From positions 1 to 37,619 of the forward strand of contig CAIXPS010000030.1 in assembly GCA_903921365.1 (NCBI GenBank): a stretch of 37,619 nt of DNA, written 5' to 3'. Positions 20,160-31,211 of this stretch are shown in pieces (position 1 is the first letter of the stretch; every line of letters begins with the position of its first letter). The notes beneath the pieces are model-generated. The model saw only the letters and a program-made list of their open reading frames with translations. It did no database searches and was not told the origin of the DNA. This DNA comes from an uncultured bacterium. GTDB lineage: Bacteria > Chloroflexota > Anaerolineae > J036 > Brachytrichaceae. The position numbers were made by a program, and so were the translations under genes.

Positions 20160-21251
20160 TTAGTGTTCGGTGTGCGCCACTGCGAGTGACGTAAACACAA
20201 CGATCAACATCATGAACACGAAGGCCTGGATGATTGCAATAGCAAACTCCAGAGCCAGGAACAATGTCGGCAGCACCATCGGCATAATGAACGCCATGAC
20301 GAACACGAGGATCGAACCGGCGAACATGTTGCCGAAAAGTCGGAACGAGAACGAAATGATGCGGATGAACTCCGACAACAATTCGAGGAAGCCGACACCG
20401 AACTGAATGTAGTTAATCAAGCCGGTCATGCCGGAACCGGCATGGCGCAACGTGCTGAACCTGAAGAAGTTCCCAAAGTAGCGCACGCCGTTAGCGCGCA
20501 CACCCTGGATTTCAATAAACAGGAAAGCGATTATCGCCATCGCCAACGTGGTGCTCAGGTCAGAGGTGGCGCGCCGCAGGAACGGCACCACGATCACGCC
20601 GCCCTGGGACGTTTGTGCAGAGGGCGAATCAGAAGTGATCGAGGCCACGGCCGCATTTCCTCCCGCAGCCTCGGGCTTGAAACCGCAGTCCTTGGCAAAA
20701 TCGGTATTGATCTTCTGGCCGGTCACAAGCGTGACGCCGCCTGTATTCACCGAACAGAACCCGCCTGTGGCGACGCGTTCAACCACGCCGATAGACTCAA
20801 CGCCCGGGAGCAATTCAAACAACCCGGCGATCATGATGAATGTGAATGCAGTGACGGCAATCGGAACAACTGCGCGGGCGCGCGCGCCCAGCGTCGGCAC
20901 GATGTACTGCTTGTACAGCATCTCGATATAGGCTTCCCACGCGTTGGTGAACCAGTTCTTTGGCTTTTCGCCGATGCCGCGCCGCCCAAGAATAACCAGG
21001 ACGATGATGACCGCATCAACGATCAGTGTGGTGAAGAGCGTGTTATACAGGCCAACCTTCATGCCGAAGATCATGATGGCGGGTTGCACGATCAATTCGG
21101 AAGGAACTGAAATTGTCGGGATGAATGCCTTGAATGTGACATCCTGGCCGTTGATGGGGAACGCAATGCCCTGGCCAAAGTTGCCCAGCATGCACCCGAT
21201 CACGCACGCGAAGATCATAAACGCGAGAAGCAATATGGTTCTTGGTTTCAT
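20160..21251 (-). CDS. atpB: ATP synthase a subunit with long inserted loop
   Basis: A 363-residue membrane protein forming the ion half-channels next to the c ring. The essential Arg is R304 in SFSFRLFGNMFAG, and the RRATSDLSTTLAMAIIAF helix (about 226-243) matches the usual TxDLNxTLAL segment. It is far longer than the common 220-290 residues. About 65 extra residues (about 155-222), Gly/Thr/Ser-rich with Cys166 and Cys189, separate the LFELLPG helix from that segment and probably form an extracytoplasmic loop. An N-terminal hydrophobic segment (about 4-22) may be an extra helix or signal anchor. It follows the AtpZ-like gene, as in standard operons. Confidence 0.93.
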   Translation of the reverse strand: MKPRTILLLAFMIFACVIGCMLGNFGQGIAFPINGQDVTFKAFIPTISVPSELIVQPAIMIFGMKVGLYNTLFTTLIVDAVIIVLVILGRRGIGEKPKNWFTNAWEAYIEMLYKQYIVPTLGARARAVVPIAVTAFTFIMIAGLFELLPGVESIGVVERVATGGFCSVNTGGVTLVTGQKINTDFAKDCGFKPEAAGGNAAVASITSDSPSAQTSQGGVIVVPFLRRATSDLSTTLAMAIIAFLFIEIQGVRANGVRYFGNFFRFSTLRHAGSGMTGLINYIQFGVGFLELLSEFIRIISFSFRLFGNMFAGSILVFVMAFIMPMVLPTLFLALEFAIAIIQAFVFMMLIVVFTSLAVAHTEH

Positions 21252-21309
21252 GTGTCTTTATTCGTTAATCCAACTACGATCTTAGTTCCAAGTTTACTGG
21301 CAATTCCGG

Positions 21310-21654
21310 TCAAACGCTAGTGATCGGCGGGCGCATGGGCCCATCCGTCTGTTTCTCTGGCGCAGGTGCGCGCTGGCTCTCAAGATAGGCCTCATACTCC
21401 GCGCGGGCTTTGGCCGATGCGCGCATGGCGATGCGGTAAGTCAACCACACAGACAATGGCAGCGCAATAAACGCAAGTCCCAGTGTAAAAAGCGGCTTTG
21501 TCGCAAGCCGCGCGTCAATAAACAGCCCGAGTGCCAGCGAACCGATCATCAGGCCGCCAATCACAAGTCCCACCTGAACGACCATTCCCGCGAGAACCGC
21601 CGGCGGCAGTGCGCGTGTCAATATGACGATAGGTGATTCCTTCCGAGTGCTCAT
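21310..21654 (-). CDS. AtpZ/AtpI-like small membrane protein of the ATP synthase operon
   Basis: A 114-residue protein with two membrane helices (about 18-45 and 52-72), joined by the short loop GLFIDARLATKP. The pattern GGLMIGSLALGLFID...LGLAFIALPLSVWLTYRIA matches the AtpZ/AtpI families, which help assemble the c ring or carry magnesium. A charged C-terminal tail (about 76-114) follows. It sits directly before atpB, where atpI or atpZ is normally found, and 26 bases after nuoN, so it links the nuo and atp parts of the cluster. Confidence 0.75.
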   Translation of the reverse strand: MSTRKESPIVILTRALPPAVLAGMVVQVGLVIGGLMIGSLALGLFIDARLATKPLFTLGLAFIALPLSVWLTYRIAMRASAKARAEYEAYLESQRAPAPEKQTDGPMRPPITSV

Positions 21655-21680: not shown

Positions 21681-23201
21681 CTAATTCAATATAGTCTGTA
21701 ACGATTTGGCCGCCGCCAACGCCAGATCCCAGAACGGCGTTGAGACAAGGGTGATAATCAACACGGCTGCGGATGTGATCAGCACCACCCAGCCCGTCAC
21801 CGCAGGTATTGGGAATGGACGGCTTTCGTTCGGGCTGCGCTCCACGTACATGGCCCGAACCACGCCTAGATAGTAGAACACTGAGATCAGGACATTGATG
21901 ACGCCGACCACGACCAGCCCGATCAGGTTCTCATCGACGGCCGAGCGGAACAGGAACAGCTTGCCGACGAAACCGACCAGCGGCGGCGCGCCAGTCAGGC
22001 TCAACAACACTGCCACCATTGCAAGCGCCAGATAGGGCGAGCGCCGCGCCAGTCCGCTGAAATCCTTTAAGTTATCGCCGCCCGCGCGTTGCGCCACCAG
22101 CCCGACGATGGCGAAGGCGCCGATGTTGGTGAACATATAGGTGGCGATGTAAAAAATTACGCCCGCAATCGCGTTGGGCTCAGCGCCGTTGACCTCGCCA
22201 CGGCTGGCTGCATACGCCAGCGCAGTGACGCCAATCATGATGTAACCGGCCTGCGCAATGCTGGAATATGCCAGCATCCGCTTGACACTCGTTTGCGTGA
22301 TCGCCAACAGGTTGCCGAGGAACATGGTCAGGATCGCCACGGGTTGCATCATCGCCACCCACACCTGCGTCGCGGGTGTAGGCGCCAGAGGAGAGAACGC
22401 GTAGAGCAGAAAGCGGATCATGATGGCGAACCCGGCCGCCTTGGACGCGGTGCTGATGAAGCCCGTGACTGGCGTCGGTGCGCCGTCATACACATCCGGC
22501 GCCCAGAAGTGGAACGGCACGGCTGTGGTCTTGAATGCAAAGCCGATCATCACGAGCAGCAGAGCGAACACGCCAACCATGTGCGGCGACTCCGGCGCGG
22601 TGAGGGCTGCGGCGATCTTTTCATAACCGGTCTGACCGCTCAAGCCATAGACCAAGCTCAAGCCATACAGCATGATGGTCGAGCTGACGGCCCCGAAGAT
22701 GAAGTACTTCATGCCTGCTTCGGCGCTGCGCGGTGTGTCGCGCATGAAGCCAGCCAGCAGGTACAACGCCATGCTGGAGGTTTCGGTGGCGAGGAACAGG
22801 AGGATGATGTCGTTGGCAGAAGCCATCAGGCACATGCCCATCGTGGCCAGGATCACGAGCGCAAAAAACTCGCCGCCCGCGCGCACAGGTTTGAAGTCAA
22901 TGGAAAGGAGACAGGTGAGCGCGCCAGCGACAATGAAGACAGCGTCGAAGACGTAGGCATACAAGTCGTGGCGGATCATGCCGCCGAGCAATACCGCGCC
23001 TTTATCGGCGGGAGGCGCAAGCACGGTCGCCAGCACCATCACCACCAGCACGCCAATCGCCGAGAGCATGCCAAGCACGCGCCGGTTTAACTGCGGCAGT
23101 TTCAGGAAGTCCAGCGACAGGATGAAAAATGCCCAGAAGGTCAGGCCGATCTCTGGCGCAACTGCGAGTAAATCAGATGGGTTGAATTGTGTACCGAACA
23201 T
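21681..23201 (-). CDS. nuoN: NADH-quinone oxidoreductase subunit N
   Basis: A 506-residue membrane protein with about 14 helices, one of the three antiporter-like proton-pumping subunits of complex I. Key residues are kept: Glu140 in FLATETSSMALYLL (TM5), Lys165 in GMKYFIFGA, and Lys224 in GFAFKTTAVPFHFWAPDVYDGAP, the broken-helix motif. This is the last nuo gene before the ATP synthase genes, in the usual terminal position of bacterial nuo operons. It starts 19 bases after the second nuoM. No strong ribosome binding site precedes the ATG. Confidence 0.95.
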   Translation of the reverse strand: MFGTQFNPSDLLAVAPEIGLTFWAFFILSLDFLKLPQLNRRVLGMLSAIGVLVVMVLATVLAPPADKGAVLLGGMIRHDLYAYVFDAVFIVAGALTCLLSIDFKPVRAGGEFFALVILATMGMCLMASANDIILLFLATETSSMALYLLAGFMRDTPRSAEAGMKYFIFGAVSSTIMLYGLSLVYGLSGQTGYEKIAAALTAPESPHMVGVFALLLVMIGFAFKTTAVPFHFWAPDVYDGAPTPVTGFISTASKAAGFAIMIRFLLYAFSPLAPTPATQVWVAMMQPVAILTMFLGNLLAITQTSVKRMLAYSSIAQAGYIMIGVTALAYAASRGEVNGAEPNAIAGVIFYIATYMFTNIGAFAIVGLVAQRAGGDNLKDFSGLARRSPYLALAMVAVLLSLTGAPPLVGFVGKLFLFRSAVDENLIGLVVVGVINVLISVFYYLGVVRAMYVERSPNESRPFPIPAVTGWVVLITSAAVLIITLVSTPFWDLALAAAKSLQTILN

Positions 23202-23220: not shown

Positions 23221-24765
23221 TTAGCTGCCGACTCCGCTCAATGCCTTGACGATGAGTTGCACACCGCTCTGAACAACCGACATGATTGTGTTGGGCATGA
23301 TTCCAACCACAATCAGAACCGCGCTCATGAAGACGATGGCCGTCTTCTCAAGCGCATCCAGCCCCGGCAGCCGCTGCCATTCGGGGTTGGTCGGTTCGGT
23401 GAAATACACGCGATAGACGGCGCGCAACGTCCACGCAGCGGTGATCAGGACGATCAGCACGGCCGCAATCGCGATCCAGGCATACCACGAATTGAGCATC
23501 CCCGGGAACATCAGGCTGTTGGTCTGTGCCGCATTCCACAATCCCATAAAAATCTGAATCTCGGCCAGGAAGCCCGGCAAACCAGGCATGCCCATAGCGG
23601 TAAGCGCGGCAATGACAAACCCGACCGCAGCCAGCGGCATCACCTTTACAAATCCGTTCAATTCGTCGATGTTCCGGTTGTGCGCGCGGCCATAGACGAT
23701 GCCGACCAGTGCGAACATGAGCCCGGTCATCACACCGCCTGCAAACAGCTCCAGCCCGGCGCCGTTCAGGCCAAACTCATTCATCGCCGTAATGCCAAGC
23801 AGCACCAACCCAAGGTGGCTGACGGATGCAAACCCGACAATGTACTTCAGGTCCTTCTGGTTAAAAGCGATCAGACCCGCGTATAGCACGTTGGCCAGCG
23901 ACAGGAAGGCGATGACGGGCAGGAAATACTTGGCGGCATCGGGCATCAATTGCACCCCGAAGCGCAACGCGGCATACGCGCCTGTAGCCTTCAACACGCC
24001 GCCATGCAGCATCGAAACAGCAGTGGGTGCGGCAGCATATCCATCCGGTGACCAGTTATGCAACGGCCACAGGCTGGCCAGCACGCCGAAACCGACGAAG
24101 ATTGCCAGGAACCACGGCCGAATGGCCTCGAATTCTGTCGTAGATAGTTTGCGGACGTTCTCTGCCAGCACCACAAAGTCAAAGGTGCTGCCCGCCTTGA
24201 AATAGACGATCAGCAGGCCAATGATCGCCACGAGCGAGCCGATAAACAAGTAAATCGTCAGCTTCATGGCCGCATACTCGCGCCGAGTGCTGCCCCAGCC
24301 CGCGATGAGCACGTACACTGGGAAGAGCACCATCTCGTAGAAGATCAGGAACAGGAAGATGTCCAGCGACATGAACGCGCCGAACACACCTGCTACCAGC
24401 AGGAGCAGGAAACCGAAATACGAGCGCGGACGATCGTTTTCACGCCATGAGACCAGCACTGCGCCAAAAAAGACGATGCCGGTCAACAGAAGCATTGGCG
24501 CGCTGAATCCGTCGATGGCGACGTGATAGCCGATACCAAGCGAGCGAATCCACTCGCTTTGCTCGGTGAACTGGAAACCGCCCAGGTCGCGGTTGTAGCC
24601 AACAAATACCAGGAACGACAACAGCAGCGAGACCAGTGCGGCAGCGGCAGCGACGGTCTTGATCGCATCGGTTTTGTCTTTCGGCAGGAGTGCAATCACT
24701 ACCGCGCCAATCACGGGCGAGAGCATGATTAATGTAAGAACGGGGATTGAGAAAGTGTTCACCAT
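23221..24765 (-). CDS. nuoM: NADH-quinone oxidoreductase subunit M, second copy (divergent)
   Basis: A 514-residue antiporter-like subunit, second of two in tandem. TM5 Glu144 (FLIFYEMVLFPVYVLIAG), Lys259 (GGVLKATGAY) and a TM12 Glu (GFLAEIQIFMG) are present. The broken-helix segment reads VGFGVLASLWPLHNWSPDGYAAAPT: the Lys found there in other NuoM proteins (E. coli Lys234, Lys239 of the neighbouring copy) is Leu229, and the LP before it is AS. That Lys is considered essential for proton transfer, so this copy may pump differently or play a structural part. The partner nuoM lies 16 bases upstream. Tandem NuoM complexes are known, for example in Nitrospira. Confidence 0.92.
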   Translation of the reverse strand: MVNTFSIPVLTLIMLSPVIGAVVIALLPKDKTDAIKTVAAAAALVSLLLSFLVFVGYNRDLGGFQFTEQSEWIRSLGIGYHVAIDGFSAPMLLLTGIVFFGAVLVSWRENDRPRSYFGFLLLLVAGVFGAFMSLDIFLFLIFYEMVLFPVYVLIAGWGSTRREYAAMKLTIYLFIGSLVAIIGLLIVYFKAGSTFDFVVLAENVRKLSTTEFEAIRPWFLAIFVGFGVLASLWPLHNWSPDGYAAAPTAVSMLHGGVLKATGAYAALRFGVQLMPDAAKYFLPVIAFLSLANVLYAGLIAFNQKDLKYIVGFASVSHLGLVLLGITAMNEFGLNGAGLELFAGGVMTGLMFALVGIVYGRAHNRNIDELNGFVKVMPLAAVGFVIAALTAMGMPGLPGFLAEIQIFMGLWNAAQTNSLMFPGMLNSWYAWIAIAAVLIVLITAAWTLRAVYRVYFTEPTNPEWQRLPGLDALEKTAIVFMSAVLIVVGIMPNTIMSVVQSGVQLIVKALSGVGS

Positions 24766-24781: not shown

Positions 24782-26329
24782 TTATTGGAACAGTCGCACC
24801 ACGCCGACGTTGATCAGGTTCAAGACAACCGACGGGAAGATGCCCAGCACCAGCATCGCAATCATCAGCGGCGCCACCGCAACAATTTCTGTGATCGAGA
24901 TATCGGTCAATGGGTGGTGGCGCCACTCTTCACCAAGCGGCCCATGCAGCACCTTCTGCAGCGCCTTCAAAATGTAGATGCCTGTGATGAGCAGTCCAGC
25001 CATCGACAGGATCGTCAGCAGCGTGAAGGCTGGCCATGCGCCTCGCGTCACCATAAACTCGCTGACAAAGCCCGCCAGCCCAGGCAAACCGAGCGACGCC
25101 ATCGAGCAGAAGATCAGGATAGCGCCGTACTTGGGCATGATCGCCCACAACCCGCCATACTTGGTGAGATCGCGCGTGTGTGTGCGCTCGTAGACTACGC
25201 CGACCAGAGCGAACATTGCAGCAGAGGACAACCCGTGCGTCACCATCTGGAACACCGCGCCACTGGCGGCGATATTGGCATCCAGGTTTTTGACGCCATT
25301 GGTGAAGTACAGCGCGGCGGATGCAACGCCCAGCGCAACGAACCCCATGTGGTTAATAGACGAATACGCCACCAGTTTCTTGAAGTCAGTCTGGCCCCAG
25401 GCTGCGAAAGCGCCCAGCACGATGCTGATGAACGCCAGCACCGCCAGCACCGGCGCAAATTGCGCCGCCGCATCCGGGAACAGCGGGATGACTAGCCGGA
25501 TGAAACCGTAACCGCCCAGCTTCAACAGGATGCCCGCCAGCATCATCGAACCTCCCGTAGGCGCTTCGGTGTGTGCGTCAGGCAGCCAGGTGTGAAACGG
25601 CCAGATCGGCAGCTTCAGCGCGAAGGCCAGGCTGAACGCGAAGAAGGCGATGCCTTTCCATATTTTTGGATCTTGCACGAGCAGATTGACCTGATTATTC
25701 GTGTTATCCCCAAATGGCCGTCCCACTGCTGAGAACAGATAGGGCAGGTCAAAGCTCTTCGAGGCCAGCCCGACCACCTGGATCGCCAGCAGTAGACCGA
25801 GGCTGGCCGCCATCGTGTACAGGATGAATTTGAATGACGCGTATTTCCTGTTCTGGCCGCCCCACTGGTTGATCAGGAAAAACATCGGCACGAGGCTGGC
25901 TTCAAAGAAGATGAAGAATAAGATGAGGTCGAGCGAGATGAAACAACCAACCACTGCCGCTTCGAGCAGGAAGAACAGCGCAAAGAACGCCTTCACGCCT
26001 TTCTGGATCGACAGGGACATGAGCATCGATAGCGGCGTCAGGAAGGCGCCCAGCACGATCAGCGGTATGCTGATGCCGTCGACACCGACGTGATAGCTCG
26101 AGTTGATCTGCGGGAACCACGGCGCCTGTTGTTCAAACTGGAACCCGGCCTGCGTCTGGTTATAGCTGACCCACATGATGATCGACAACCCGATCGGCAC
26201 AAGGCTGAAGGCAATCGAGCCCCATTTGATCAGTCCCGTTCGCTCAGACGGCGCCAGCAGAACCAGCAGCATACCGAGCGCCGGCGCCAATAGAAGCAGT
26301 GTGAGAATGTTACTTTGTATAAATTCCAT
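24782..26329 (-). CDS. nuoM: NADH-quinone oxidoreductase subunit M, first copy (canonical)
   Basis: A 515-residue antiporter-like subunit of the complex I membrane arm. All expected pumping residues are visible: Glu143 in FFIFFEASLVPMFFLI, Lys239 in FALKLPIWPFHTWLPDAHTEAPT, Lys270 in GILLKLGGYGF, and Glu in GLAGFVSEFMVTRG. Thus it is a normal proton-pumping NuoM, unlike its downstream paralogue. It lies 25 bases after nuoL, and its order L-M-M-N fits a membrane arm lengthened by one pump module. No strong ribosome binding site is visible before the ATG. Confidence 0.95.
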   Translation of the reverse strand: MEFIQSNILTLLLLAPALGMLLVLLAPSERTGLIKWGSIAFSLVPIGLSIIMWVSYNQTQAGFQFEQQAPWFPQINSSYHVGVDGISIPLIVLGAFLTPLSMLMSLSIQKGVKAFFALFFLLEAAVVGCFISLDLILFFIFFEASLVPMFFLINQWGGQNRKYASFKFILYTMAASLGLLLAIQVVGLASKSFDLPYLFSAVGRPFGDNTNNQVNLLVQDPKIWKGIAFFAFSLAFALKLPIWPFHTWLPDAHTEAPTGGSMMLAGILLKLGGYGFIRLVIPLFPDAAAQFAPVLAVLAFISIVLGAFAAWGQTDFKKLVAYSSINHMGFVALGVASAALYFTNGVKNLDANIAASGAVFQMVTHGLSSAAMFALVGVVYERTHTRDLTKYGGLWAIMPKYGAILIFCSMASLGLPGLAGFVSEFMVTRGAWPAFTLLTILSMAGLLITGIYILKALQKVLHGPLGEEWRHHPLTDISITEIVAVAPLMIAMLVLGIFPSVVLNLINVGVVRLFQ

Positions 26330-26354: not shown

Positions 26355-28547
26355 CTACTGCGCCAGCACAAGGAAGAAGACCATCAGGACGACGGCGGCG
26401 ATCAGCGCCGAGAGCAGATAATTCTGCACCTGCCCGCTTTGCAGTTCGCGCCCCTCACGACCGATGCTGCGCACCGTGTTGCCGATCAGATCGGAACCGC
26501 CGGTGATAATCACGCGATCAAATTCCTTGAGCGCCCCGGCAATGCCCACGCCGAGTTTGTACAGGCCTTCCAGCGCCCAGTCGATGACACCCTTGTCGAT
26601 GACGCGGCTGTAGTTGTCCGCAATGGCCTGCAATGGCTTGATGAAGATGACGCGATACAGTTCGTCAAAGTACCAGCGGTTGTGCAGGAAAGTGAACAAC
26701 CCGCCCAGTTTTTCGACTGGGTCCGTCTGCCCTGCTTTGAGCGGCTTTTGACCATAGACCAGCCATCCCAGGCCGAGGCCGCCCAGCGCCACGACCAGCG
26801 AGGTCAGCAGCGGTATTGCATTAAATACCTGGGCTTCCTCTTTGAACGCCTGAAGCTCGACCAGTTGCGTGCTGATAAAGCTCTTGAGCCAGCCGGCTGC
26901 CGGGCCAAACAGCGCGCCCAGCACCGGAAAGTCCTTGGGCACATTGACAAATCCAAAGAAGATCGCGAAGACGGCCAGCACGATCAACGGGAAGGTCATC
27001 GCCGGCGCGGATTCAGTCGCGTTTGCAGCTGCTTCAGTGCGCGCCTCGCCAAGGAAGGTCATCGAAATCTGACGCGCGGTGTAGAACGCGGTCAGCAAAG
27101 CTGAGAAGGCCAGCACGATGAACACAATCGTTGAAATCAAGCTGCCGGTGCTCAAACCATGGAAGGCATCGGCCAGAATTTCGTCCTTGCTCCAGAAGCC
27201 CGCGGTGATGAACGGGAAGCCGGCCAACGCCAGCCCGCCCGCCAGGAACGTGTAGAAGGTGATCGGCATGCGCTTGCGCAGCCCGCCCATATTGCGCATG
27301 TCCTGCGGATCAAACGCCGGTGCTGCTGACGCCGTTTCGGCGCCGTGATCGTGGTCGAGCTCTTCCGCATTGCCATGCTCGTCGCCATGCGCATGCGCGA
27401 CATGCTCGTGACCATGCTCCACGCCATGGATCACCGAACCGGAACCCATGAAGAGCAACGCCTTGAAGAACGCATGCGAAAGCAGATGGAACACCGCTGC
27501 GCCATATGCGCCGATGCCAATCGCCGCCACCATGAAGCCAAGCTGGCTGATGGTGGAGAACGCCAGCACACGCTTGATGTCATATTGCGCCACTGCGATG
27601 GTTGCGCCGAGCAGCGCCGTGATCGCGCCAATAAGGCCAACGACCATAAAGGCAGTGTTATCAGGCCCGCCCACTTGCAACAACGGGAAGAAGCGCAGCA
27701 GAAGGAAGATGCCCGCGCTGACCATCGTTGCAGCATGGATCATCGCGCTGACGGGTGTGGGACCTTCCATCGCGTCGGGCAACCACACATGCAGAGGGAA
27801 CTGCGCGCTCTTGCCCACAGTGCCGCCGAAGATCAGAATGGCGATCAGCCCTGCCGCCGAAATGCCCAGCCCCAGCACGGCGGGAGTCGCCGCGAGTGTT
27901 TCCAGCACTTTGGCGTTGTGCAGGACATCAAAGAAGTTGAGCGTGCCCGTCTGCGTATACAAGTACACGATGCCAAGCAGCAACAGCATGTCGCCGACGC
28001 GCGTGGTCATGAACGCCTTGACGGCTGCTTTATATGCGGAGGGCTTGCGATAGAAGAAGCCGATCAGCGCATACGAGCAGAAACCCATCAACTCCCAGAA
28101 CACGAACAGCGACAGCAGGTTGTCCGAGACGACCAGCCCCATCATCGCCCCGCCGAACAGGCTGAGAAACGCGAAGAAACGCGTGTACAGGGGATCAGAG
28201 GCCATGTAGGACGTGCTGTAGATGAAGATCAGCGAGCAGGCCAGCGGCACCATGAACATGAAGGTGGCGCCGAGGGGATCGACCGCCACGCCAATGTTGA
28301 AGGTGCTGCCTGCGGTGGGAATGAAGCTATAGGCGATGCCGCGAATCGGATCTTCGCCCAGATTGCCAATCCCTACCGCGTTAAAAAATACAACAAAGGA
28401 CAGGACGCACGACGTCAGCATTGCGACCACTGCGATAGCCGAGCTGATCTGGCGGTAACGATTCGTAAAGAGCACGATTACCGCAAACGACAGCAGCGGC
28501 GGCAGCGGCGCCAGCCAGGTGAGTGTACCGAGTAGTTCTCTGCTCAT
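26355..28547 (-). CDS. nuoL: NADH-quinone oxidoreductase subunit L with His-rich insertion
   Basis: A 730-residue membrane protein, the distal pump of complex I with a C-terminal lateral helix. Key residues are kept: Glu152 in FVFWELMGFCSYALIGF, Lys246 in TVGKSAQFPLHVWLPDAMEGPTPVSA, His/Lys362 in HLLSHAFFKALLFMGSGSVIH, and Lys454-Asp455 in GFWSKDEI. It is about 100 residues longer than the E. coli protein. Part of the excess is an insertion at about 375-412 between SVIH and DMRNMGGL, with nine His among residues 374-401 plus many Asp/Glu, possibly metal-binding. The rest lies in the C-terminal lateral-helix region. The ATG overlaps the nuoK stop as ATGA. Confidence 0.95.
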   Translation of the reverse strand: MSRELLGTLTWLAPLPPLLSFAVIVLFTNRYRQISSAIAVVAMLTSCVLSFVVFFNAVGIGNLGEDPIRGIAYSFIPTAGSTFNIGVAVDPLGATFMFMVPLACSLIFIYSTSYMASDPLYTRFFAFLSLFGGAMMGLVVSDNLLSLFVFWELMGFCSYALIGFFYRKPSAYKAAVKAFMTTRVGDMLLLLGIVYLYTQTGTLNFFDVLHNAKVLETLAATPAVLGLGISAAGLIAILIFGGTVGKSAQFPLHVWLPDAMEGPTPVSAMIHAATMVSAGIFLLLRFFPLLQVGGPDNTAFMVVGLIGAITALLGATIAVAQYDIKRVLAFSTISQLGFMVAAIGIGAYGAAVFHLLSHAFFKALLFMGSGSVIHGVEHGHEHVAHAHGDEHGNAEELDHDHGAETASAAPAFDPQDMRNMGGLRKRMPITFYTFLAGGLALAGFPFITAGFWSKDEILADAFHGLSTGSLISTIVFIVLAFSALLTAFYTARQISMTFLGEARTEAAANATESAPAMTFPLIVLAVFAIFFGFVNVPKDFPVLGALFGPAAGWLKSFISTQLVELQAFKEEAQVFNAIPLLTSLVVALGGLGLGWLVYGQKPLKAGQTDPVEKLGGLFTFLHNRWYFDELYRVIFIKPLQAIADNYSRVIDKGVIDWALEGLYKLGVGIAGALKEFDRVIITGGSDLIGNTVRSIGREGRELQSGQVQNYLLSALIAAVVLMVFFLVLAQ

Positions 28548-28861
28548 AGTTTCATTGAATCGATTTTCTCTGGGTCAACACTGCGCGTGTTGCGGTAGAT
28601 CGAAATAATCAGCGCCAGCCCCACTGCCGCTTCCGCTGCGGCCACGACAAAGATAAATGCCGCGAAAGTGATGCCGGATATCGAGGTGGGTGTGATATAG
28701 CGCCAGAAAGCGATCAGGTTGATATTGACCGCATTCAACATCAACTCGACGCCCATTATCACAGCAATGACGTTTTTGCGCGCCATCACGCCATATAGCC
28801 CGATGCAGAACAATGCAGCGGACACAATCAAATACCAGTAAAGTGGAATTCCATTGATCAT
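28544..28861 (-). CDS. nuoK: NADH-quinone oxidoreductase subunit K
   Basis: A 105-residue protein with three membrane helices. The two conserved membrane Glu residues of NuoK are Glu39 (IMGVELMLNAVNINLIAF) and Glu77 (VVAAAEAAVGLALI), both needed for proton transfer along the central axis. Length and motifs are those of ordinary NuoK. It starts 15 bases after nuoJ and overlaps nuoL by four bases, so translation of the two is likely coupled. Confidence 0.97.
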   Translation of the reverse strand: MINGIPLYWYLIVSAALFCIGLYGVMARKNVIAVIMGVELMLNAVNINLIAFWRYITPTSISGITFAAFIFVVAAAEAAVGLALIISIYRNTRSVDPEKIDSMKL

Positions 28862-28876
28862 TGTTGAACTCCTTTG

Positions 28877-29572
28877 TCAGTGCTTCTCGGTGGCAGCCGC
28901 GTTGCGCGAGTCATGTGCTTCATGGGTTTCAGTTTCAATCAGCGGCAAAGGCTCCTGCACCGGCTGATTGGCGTCCATATCCGCGTCGTCAACTGCGGTT
29001 TCGGCTGCTGCGCGCTCTGCTTCACGACCGCGCAGTTCGCGCGCCACCCAGATCGCGCCGACCATCGCCACAAGCAGCAGCACTGCGGCCAGCAGGAAGG
29101 GCACGCCGTACTGATTGAGATCCACCAACCCCGTGCCGAGGATGCCGACAAAGTTTCCTGGCGCGGCCTTGATCGCGTTGCCGTCCATGGCAAAAGGCCA
29201 GTTGGCATTGCCAAACTCGCGCCCGCGGATAGTGACCGAGAACGGTCCAAGTAACAGAGCCATGATCAGGAATATCACGCCAGCGACGATTGCGGCAGCC
29301 TGCCACTGCGAATTTCCGCGTTGGGCGGTAATCACGTCGCGGGTGAGCATCACCGCAAATATGAAGAGGATTGAGATGGCGCCGATGTAAACCAGCACCT
29401 GTGCGGCGGCAAAAAAGCCTGCATCAAGCAGCACGTAGAACCCGGCGACGCCAAAGAACGACACAACCAGAAACAGCGCAGCGTGAAACAGGTTGCGCGT
29501 GGTGACTACCAGAACGGCGGAGCCCAGCACAACGAGGGAGATGACAATAAAAAGGATCTGCTGTAATGTCAT
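28877..29572 (-). CDS. nuoJ: NADH-quinone oxidoreductase subunit J with acidic tail
   Basis: A 231-residue protein with five membrane helices in its first 170 residues. VLVYIGAISILFIFAVML contains the GA(I) bulge helix typical of NuoJ TM3, which changes shape during catalysis. The last 60 residues form a charged tail (REAERAAAETAVDDADMDANQ and on), making it longer than the common 165-200 residues. The ATG overlaps the nuoH TGA as ATGA (29569-29572). Its place between nuoH and nuoK is standard, except that nuoI, usually between H and J, is absent. Confidence 0.95.
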   Translation of the reverse strand: MTLQQILFIVISLVVLGSAVLVVTTRNLFHAALFLVVSFFGVAGFYVLLDAGFFAAAQVLVYIGAISILFIFAVMLTRDVITAQRGNSQWQAAAIVAGVIFLIMALLLGPFSVTIRGREFGNANWPFAMDGNAIKAAPGNFVGILGTGLVDLNQYGVPFLLAAVLLLVAMVGAIWVARELRGREAERAAAETAVDDADMDANQPVQEPLPLIETETHEAHDSRNAAATEKH

Positions 29573-30840
29573 TGAGCCACCACCTTGGCCGCCGCAACCT
29601 TGTTCTGTGCAACGCGCTTCTCAATGTCCTCAGCTTCGACCAGGCGCAACTGGCGCGCCTGACGCGCGACGAGGAGCAGGCTGGCCAACAGCAACGCAAT
29701 ACTGGAAGTGAATAAAATGAGCGCCTGCACGATCGGCGGCACCGCGATCCCACCGTTCGACTGTGCCAGCACTGCATCTGCCACAAACACCTTGCCGATC
29801 ACCATGACGAGGATGACATTGACGATCGACATCGGAACGAGAAACTTCCAGTTGAAGCTCATCAGTTGGTCGACGCGCACGCGGGGAAGCGTGCCGCGCA
29901 ACCACATGAGAAGGGTGAACACCGCAGCCACCTTCAGCAGCAACCACACATAAGGGGGCAGGATCGGGCCGGCATAGCCGCCCAGGAAGAGGACGGTGAA
30001 CATGATCGAAACGGCCAGCGCATTCACGTATTCGCCCAGGAAGAAGAGGGCGAATTTCATGCCGCTGTACTCGACGTGGAAACCCGCCACGATTTCAGAT
30101 TCAGCTTCGAGCAGGTCAAAAGGCGAACGCCCGGTTTCGGCGATACCGCTGATGAGGAAGATCAGCGCAGAGAGCGGCGCCATCAGGATGAACGGGATGC
30201 CGTTGCCGCCGTTGCTCAGCGTCTGGCGCTCGACGATGTCGACCAGGCTCATCGAGCCCGCGAGCATCACAACCGGCAATACGTTGAGCAGCATGGGGAC
30301 TTCATAACCGACCAATTGCGCCACCGTGCGGAACGCGCCGAGCAGCGAGTACTTATTATTGCTGCCCCAACCCGCCATCAGGATGGCGACGGTGCTGCCC
30401 GAACCCACTGCGATGACGTAGAACACGCCGATGTTCAGATTGGTGCCAACGACGCCGGGGGCAAAAGGAATCACCGCATAGGTGAGCAGGGCAAACACTG
30501 CAATCACCAGCGGGGCAAGGTTATAAACCCAGCGGTCGGCCTCAGCCGGCGTGGTGTCTTCCTTGGTGAACATCTTGATGCCGTCTGCGATCGGCTGCAA
30601 CAAACCGTAAGGGCCTGCCTGATTTGGGCCAATACGATCCTGGATGCGGGCGACGATCTTGCGTTCAGCGTAGGTCAGCCCCATAAACGCCACGGCGCAA
30701 ATCGAGCAGATGATGAGCGCCGCCAGCAACATGATCACAAAATCGGCGAGGCCGCCTGCGCCCAGGATGCTGATAATAAATGCGGCGACAGCATCTCCGA
30801 CGATCTTCAGTATGTTGTTGATAACCTCAAAGACTGTCAT
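29569..30840 (-). CDS. nuoH: NADH-quinone oxidoreductase subunit H
   Basis: A 423-residue membrane protein that forms the heel of complex I and part of the quinone chamber. The cytoplasmic loops carry the expected signatures: YAERKIVARIQDRIGPNQAGP and GLLQPIADGIKMFTKED, GWGSNNKYSLLGAFRTVAQLVGYE, and SPFDLLEAESEIVAGFHVEYSG. I set the start at ATG 30840, preceded by GGGAG at a good distance; an upstream frame to 30885 overlaps nuoA. It directly follows nuoA, whereas bacterial operons usually have nuoBCD(EFG) in between. Its Q-site partners NuoB and NuoD must be encoded elsewhere. Confidence 0.97.
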   Translation of the reverse strand: MTVFEVINNILKIVGDAVAAFIISILGAGGLADFVIMLLAALIICSICAVAFMGLTYAERKIVARIQDRIGPNQAGPYGLLQPIADGIKMFTKEDTTPAEADRWVYNLAPLVIAVFALLTYAVIPFAPGVVGTNLNIGVFYVIAVGSGSTVAILMAGWGSNNKYSLLGAFRTVAQLVGYEVPMLLNVLPVVMLAGSMSLVDIVERQTLSNGGNGIPFILMAPLSALIFLISGIAETGRSPFDLLEAESEIVAGFHVEYSGMKFALFFLGEYVNALAVSIMFTVLFLGGYAGPILPPYVWLLLKVAAVFTLLMWLRGTLPRVRVDQLMSFNWKFLVPMSIVNVILVMVIGKVFVADAVLAQSNGGIAVPPIVQALILFTSSIALLLASLLLVARQARQLRLVEAEDIEKRVAQNKVAAAKVVAQ

Positions 30841-30854
30841 ATTACTCCCTATCC

Positions 30855-31211
30855 CTAGTCCCACTGCAGGACGCCCTTGCGCCACGCATACAGCAATGAA
30901 CCGAGCAAAGTCAGGATAAATAAAATCACGATAACGATGGCATATAGAGGAAGCGAGTTATAGGCAACGGCAAAGGGGAAGAGGAATATACCGCCGACAT
31001 CGAACAGCACGAAGATAAGCGCGAAAATGTAATACTGCACTCGGAATTGCACCCACGCATCGCCCACGGTCTCCATACCGCACTCATAGGTCTCAAGCTT
31101 GGCTTTGCTGGGCTTCTTAGGCCGCAAAATAGAAGCGCCTACCAGTGCGAAGCCCATTAACAGGACGGCAGCCAGCATCATTACAGCTACAAAGGCAAAA
31201 TCGGTTCTCAT
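30855..31211 (-). CDS. nuoA: NADH-quinone oxidoreductase subunit A
   Basis: A 118-residue protein with three membrane helices. TYECGMETVGDAWVQF is the NuoA loop near the quinone site, with Glu43 and Cys44 (the Cys is the one whose exposure changes in mitochondrial ND3). The second helix reads FVLFDVGGIFLFPF: Asp71 is kept, but the Glu two residues later (Glu81 of E. coli) is Gly73. This is the first gene of the long minus-strand cluster. AAGGTGG lies six bases before the ATG, and a promoter candidate lies about 100 bases upstream. Confidence 0.93.
   Translation of the reverse strand: MRTDFAFVAVMMLAAVLLMGFALVGASILRPKKPSKAKLETYECGMETVGDAWVQFRVQYYIFALIFVLFDVGGIFLFPFAVAYNSLPLYAIVIVILFILTLLGSLLYAWRKGVLQWD

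Follow-up and report, generated by a model that had tools for sequence, protein, structure and literature searches.

How might a complex I work when one of its NuoM subunits has no TM7 lysine? Mutants of E. coli and Paracoccus have led to the pair formed by a TM5 glutamate and this lysine being described as essential, and in the two leading coupling models each antiporter-like subunit relies on it (PMC9802314, PMC10212512, PMC11496545). We analysed a 37,619-nucleotide stretch of a draft Chloroflexota genome (the window), whose nuo operon encodes two NuoM proteins in tandem. An earlier note on this DNA had claimed that the second copy, NuoM2, carries a leucine in place of the lysine, and had offered three explanations: that the additional module is a non-pumping spacer, that it uses another residue, or that it carries a different ion.

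A NuoM without the TM7 lysine

The operon runs on the minus strand, as do all features given below, in the order nuoA (30855..31211), nuoH (29569..30885), nuoJ (28877..29572), nuoK (28544..28861), nuoL (26355..28547, 730 residues), nuoM1 (24782..26329), nuoM2 (23221..24765) and nuoN (21681..23201), with nuoA, H, J and K assigned from their translations and from synteny and homology across loci. The nuoM2 gene has an ATG start and encodes 514 residues that score 422 bits against TIGR01972 (NDH_I_M; cut-off 263.8 bits), and it therefore passes as a NuoM. NuoM1 scores 520 bits with the same profile and possesses Lys239, Lys270, Glu143 and Glu424, and NuoN (TIGR01770, 369.8 bits) has its E/K/K/K key residues intact. 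Immediately downstream, on the same strand, lie ATP synthase genes (an ATPase_gene1/AtpI-like gene and AtpB; 20160..21654; Pfam PF09527 and PF00119). No NuoB, C, D or I gene adjoins the nuoA-N operon, and a NuoD family match is found on a different contig of the same genome.

In NuoM2 the TM7 segment reads FVGFGVLASLWPLHNWSPDGY. A motif alignment around P-x-H-x-W-x-P, free of gaps and with E. coli NuoM as the reference, places Leu229 (codon CTG, 24079-24081) in the column of E. coli NuoM Lys234, the column that also holds Lys239 of NuoM1. In the AlphaFold model of NuoM2 the TM7a helix ends exactly at residue 229, where the lysine normally sits at the helix break. The leucine is present in 22/22 sequences of the window's family, and every other orthologue likewise lacks the lysine, which confirms the substitution claimed in the earlier note; orthologues keeping the lysine, which would have been a sign of local error, were not found.

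The tandem NuoM pair is located between nuoL and nuoN, and the window's NuoL carries a lateral-helix insertion (26508-26585, approximately residues 655-680): the segment aligned to E. coli 520-590 comprises 98 residues compared with 71 in E. coli, an insertion of ~26 residues. The same segment is 96-101 residues long in 12/12 other two-NuoM Chloroflexota loci and 98 residues long in 10/10 Nitrospirota tandem loci. In one-NuoM loci it is 71-74 residues long, with a sole exception (L096, genome G283), a Dehalococcoidia-like locus with one Lys-type NuoM and no second NuoM adjoining, whose NuoL has an insertion of ~30 residues at the site used by the 2M complexes but of a sequence unrelated to theirs. 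The insertion in the window resembles an internal repeat of the adjacent helix (RVIDKGVIDW / EFDRVIITGGSD). By its anatomy, the window's complex is of the 2M type, a four-pump complex I.

Such 2M complexes were reportedly described by Chadwick et al. (2018) and have been known since then. In later accounts they have a tandem NuoM, the order nuoL-M1-M2-N and a lengthened NuoL lateral helix (PMC7117926, PMC9040806, PMC6606698), and the order L-M1-M2-N with detached B, C, D and I genes is reported to be peculiar to the 2M complexes of Chloroflexi (PMC7117926). The window shares the gene order, the NuoL extension and the detached NuoB/C/D/I genes with these complexes, as do its nearest relatives. 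The rhizobial 'green' complex I and the Manganitrophaceae Complex_I_3 likewise have more than three antiporter-like subunits, but their extra units are MrpD-like proteins that replace NuoL, or hybrids (PMC9040806). According to the later 2M accounts, one more proton is moved by the second NuoM; the absence of the lysine is not mentioned in them (PMC7117926, PMC9040806, PMC6606698). Across the searchable literature, a body that excludes the text of Chadwick et al. (2018), we found no report of TM7 lysine loss in any NuoM lineage; the loss is new to that literature, and an earlier mention in the original 2018 description is possible. A sequence search of the PDB retrieved no solved 2M or Lys-less NuoM structure, its best matches being ordinary NuoM subunits.

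Distribution and descent of the Lys-less NuoM

When tandem NuoM copies from other phyla were aligned, the loss of the lysine proved to be clade-wide and not local. All Chloroflexota NuoM2 sequences examined have leucine at this position, or threonine in one lineage, and all of their NuoM1 partners have lysine. The NuoM2 of the Nitrospirota tandem loci, that of N. moscoviensis included, has isoleucine in 10/10 cases, again with a lysine in every NuoM1. For a wider sampling, we searched with a 61-residue signature and read the TM7 residue in the matches. All 30 Nitrospirota loci examined have isoleucine, the 20 examined in Planctomycetota have leucine or isoleucine, and in Gemmatimonadota the Lys-less type was found in 2/121, with leucine. 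Among 398 sampled Pseudomonadota the best 15 matches were all Lys-type, and the lineage looks absent or rare in that phylum. A search of 'Deferribacteres' centred on G445 drew on Nitrospirota again and adds no phylum, and a scan of viral contigs for NuoM2 gave no match. The Lys-less NuoM lineage thus spans at least four phyla of bacteria and is not a local quirk. Its signature is a Leu, Ile or Thr in TM7, a WSPxG(H/Y) motif, usually a TM8 histidine and membership in one clade, and the window's NuoM2 fits it.

The Lys-less protein does not occur only as the second of two copies. In 15 Chloroflexota loci its cluster has no other NuoM, and these clusters contain a full A-B-C-D-H-I-J-K-L-M-N set wherever the extent of the contig allows; all but one of the checked Chloroflexota genomes also encode, in a separate cluster, another complex I whose NuoM is of the Lys type. 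It is also the cluster's single NuoM in Gemmatimonadota and in Planctomycetota, where several clusters contain NuoF and/or NuoG. In three Planctomycetota draft genomes (G607, G618 and G758) the NuoM profile matches three antiporter-like proteins each and no more, of which only the Lys-less protein exceeds the NuoM cut-off. If the lysine were mandatory for every complex I, these three organisms would be without a working complex I.

In a tree of 102 NuoM sequences (48 Lys-less, 54 Lys-type), built with the TM7-TM8 columns excluded, all 48 Lys-less sequences fall on one side of a single branch (SH-aLRT 100), so that one change suffices; an old NuoM lineage appears to have lost its TM7 lysine once. 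Within this clade the Chloroflexota NuoM2 sequences form one subclade and those of Nitrospira are nested among Planctomycetota, and the NuoM1 sequences of Chloroflexota and Nitrospirota are not grouped together. Whereas the 2M accounts cited above describe a convergent origin, the M2 units of the two phyla thus belong to one Lys-less clade and their M1 units are separate. In the NuoN tree, Nitrospira 2M sequences group with Planctomycetota Lys-less complexes (support 90) and those of Chloroflexota group weakly with canonical NuoN (support 87); the tree of NuoL places each of the two 2M groups with complexes of the canonical Lys type (supports 90 and 98). At these moderate supports, the trees suggest a composite 2M arm in which N-M2 is one half and M1-L the other. 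As the NuoN of Nitrospira sides with the Lys-less complexes, and its NuoL and M1 with the canonical type, the unit that was added could just as well be the lysine-bearing M1, and the earlier note's description of NuoM2 as the 'extra' module is doubtful.

Channel residues retained, shifted and gained

The NuoM2 model, built from an alignment of 29 sequences (pLDDT 91.2, pTM 0.92), has the 14-TM antiporter-like fold, with TM7 broken after residue 229 and TM12 broken at 392-396. It superimposes on E. coli NuoM (3rko_C) with a Z of 49.8 and an rmsd of 1.9 over 486 aligned residues, and on the NuoM structures of Mycobacterium, Paracoccus and E. coli with Z ~50 and rmsd 1.7-1.9 over 486-490 residues. 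Relative to same-genus genomes, the dN/dS of NuoM2 (0.059 and 0.081) equals that of NuoM1 (0.058 and 0.079), which rules out NuoM2 as a decaying copy. The 2M genes of N. moscoviensis are transcribed above the median (PMC6606698) and those of C. aggregans are expressed (PMC8004040).

Most of the remaining channel is in place. Glu144 in TM5 (24334..24336), the usual partner of the TM7 lysine, and the terminal glutamate of TM12, Glu402 (E. coli Glu407; 23560..23562), are both present, as the earlier note had said, and His317 (E. coli NuoM His322; 23815..23817) is retained as well. Across the Lys-less set the TM5 glutamate is kept in 46/48 sequences, and the TM10 histidine and the TM12 glutamate in 48/48 each. 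The note's further statement that Lys259 remains was inexact: the lysine is there (23989..23991), but the canonical NuoM position in TM8 (E. coli Lys265) is occupied by Ala260, and Lys259, one residue earlier, is in the column of the TM8 lysine of NuoN. A one-residue TM8 register difference of the same kind separates mouse ND4 from ND2 (PMC10396290). The canonical TM8 lysine is kept in 40/48 Lys-less NuoM sequences, and the window's family is not among them. Specific to this family is a TM11 pair, Glu339 and Gly343 in place of E. coli Gln344 and His348 (23737..23751). Its TM7b residue is Tyr243 in place of the usual histidine of NuoM, as in NuoN. Two related Chloroflexota families (L035 and L036) have the shifted TM8 lysine and yet keep the TM11 histidine, an indication that the changes in the window's family arose stepwise. 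Key NuoN and NuoL residues are intact at nearly all loci.

When the 48 Lys-less sequences were compared with the 54 Lys-type sequences column by column, only two columns had acquired a basic residue in half or more of the Lys-less sequences, positions 259 (TM8) and 465 in E. coli NuoM numbering, and position 465 is far from the channel. At position 259 histidine is found in 42/48 Lys-less sequences and 0/54 Lys-type sequences, an association that is not statistically independent, as the gain of the histidine and the loss of the lysine fall on one branch. In the window this residue is His254 (24004..24006), which shares its column with E. coli NuoL His254. Position 263 carries the titratable residue instead in four Lys-less sequences (His in three from Planctomycetota, Glu in one from Chloroflexota), and neither TM8 position is titratable in 2/48 (L039 and L087). 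The comparison found no gain of lysine or arginine in the membrane core of the Lys-less set. The charged and histidine residues in the modelled TM4-TM8 helices of NuoM2 are R114, E144, R161, R162, E163, K168, K190, H254, K259 and R268; a compensating Lys or Arg, which the earlier note had named as a finding that would overturn its claim, was rejected, since no conserved one has been gained near TM5 and TM7. An acidic residue that 80% of the Lys-type sequences have in TM4 has been lost in the Lys-less clade.

Compared with canonical NuoM/Nqo13/ND4, NuoM2 thus has the same fold, TM5 Glu, TM10 His, TM12 Glu and broken TM7 and TM12, but it is without the TM7 lysine and the TM4 acidic residue and has an additional TM8 histidine; in the window's family the TM8 lysine is also shifted by one residue and the TM11 histidine is lost. 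In MrpD, NuoM and NuoN no TM8 residue other than lysine is protonatable; MrpA adds a histidine, and NuoL retains only the histidine (PMC7419157). NuoM2 therefore resembles MrpA in having both TM8 residues and shares its histidine column with NuoL/Nqo12/ND5 and MrpA, but unlike NuoL and MrpA it has no TM7 lysine, its TM12 residue is Glu and not Lys, and it has no lateral helix.

Losses of other residues were seen at several loci. In the Nitrospirota 2M complexes (L212-L221) NuoM1 has lost the TM11 histidine (Leu at E. coli His348) and NuoM2 retains it, and the two NuoM copies there have lost different channel residues. The Lys-less NuoM of L087 (G279) has Asp for the TM5 Glu and no TM8 His, and no other NuoM in its draft genome exceeds the profile cut-off. 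In L092 (G390) the TM5 Glu of the Lys-less NuoM is replaced by Gly, and of the four key residues of the adjoining NuoN two are replaced, by Arg and Ser; the L092 complex is possibly degraded.

Proposed coupling without the TM5-TM7 pair

Of the three explanations offered in the earlier note, the use of another residue fits best, the TM8 histidine being the only basic gain in the membrane core. We put the probability at roughly 0.6 that NuoM2 is a proton-translocating NuoM in which the TM5-Glu/TM7-Lys switch has been replaced, probably by this histidine. In such a mechanism His254, which adjoins the TM8 lysine, would become a titratable relay and the group for proton uptake from the N side; the proton would be stored on Lys259 and would pass by His317 to Glu402. 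Glu144, freed from its own TM7 lysine, would be gated by Lys414 in TM12 of NuoN, the preceding subunit, and/or by His254. In the 2M arm NuoM2 adjoins NuoN and NuoM1 adjoins NuoL in gene order, and the longer NuoL lateral helix would span four modules. In the window's family the TM8/TM11 part has been altered further, with Lys in the NuoN register, Tyr in TM7b, the TM11 histidine lost and a TM11 glutamate gained; having changed more channel residues than its relatives, this family could have a lower activity than 1M members of the lineage. The chances are about even for the wider proposition that a multi-phylum complex I is fully coupled without the TM5-Glu/TM7-Lys switch, whose role would have moved to the TM8 histidine and TM8 lysine.

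The essential role that the earlier note ascribed to the TM7 lysine in E. coli NuoM is borne out by mutants that are inactive there (PMC3046159) and in P. denitrificans (PMC9802314), and the domino model requires TM7 as a stop, which counts against Lys-less pumping. In Nqo13 the main proton path runs ~14 Angstrom away from the ion pair, which tunes the barrier of that path (PMC11496545); this makes another tuning device conceivable.

NuoM2 might instead pump without help from the TM8 histidine, with Glu144 paired to NuoN Lys414 to form a gate across the subunit interface and the histidine merely improving proton uptake from the cytoplasm. Glu144 has been retained despite the loss of its lysine and the NuoN TM12 lysine is invariant; moreover, the TMH8 histidine of mouse ND5 is the matrix-side uptake residue (PMC10396290), and the replacement of the TM7b histidine by Tyr243 leaves His254 as the likely uptake histidine in the window's family. 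However, the NuoN lysine is just as present in ordinary complexes and bears no sequence mark of a new pairing, and we consider this arrangement a possible but distinctly less probable one.

NuoM2 is unlikely to be a passive conduit in the 2M arm, or a spacer that pumps weakly or not at all. The abolished function of the E. coli and Paracoccus mutants speaks for such a role, as do the displaced TM8 lysine and lost TM11 histidine of the window's family, but no NuoM other than the Lys-less one was detected in complete clusters of three phyla and in some draft genomes, other members of the clade conserve the channel residues, and purifying selection is equal to that on NuoM1. A useless fourth module would also leave the retained 26-residue NuoL extension unexplained. 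Transport of another ion, such as Na+, is very improbable: homologous Mrp subunits take part in Na+/H+ exchange, but they keep the TM7 Lys/TM5 Glu pair (PMC7419157), and the Lys-less clade, in which we found no support for this proposal, has no added acidic cluster in its membrane core and has instead lost an acidic TM4 residue. A sequencing, assembly or alignment error, conceivable in a draft genome of 603 contigs, is ruled out by the orthologues, more than 100 independent sequences from four phyla having the same residue class in a gap-free motif alignment.

The textbook rule for NuoM pumping may therefore not be universal. If NuoM2 does translocate protons with its switch replaced, the Glu-Lys pair of the electrostatic-wave and domino models would be dispensable in some modules. 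The Lys-less lineage, found in four phyla with most of the channel kept and with no other NuoM in some genomes, is a ready-made natural experiment that could show whether TM7 is a mandatory proton stop, as some models have it, or only tunes the gate, as others do. A further question on which it bears is how 2M complexes meet the extra work asked of them, the proposed role in Nitrospira being reverse electron transport to ferredoxin.
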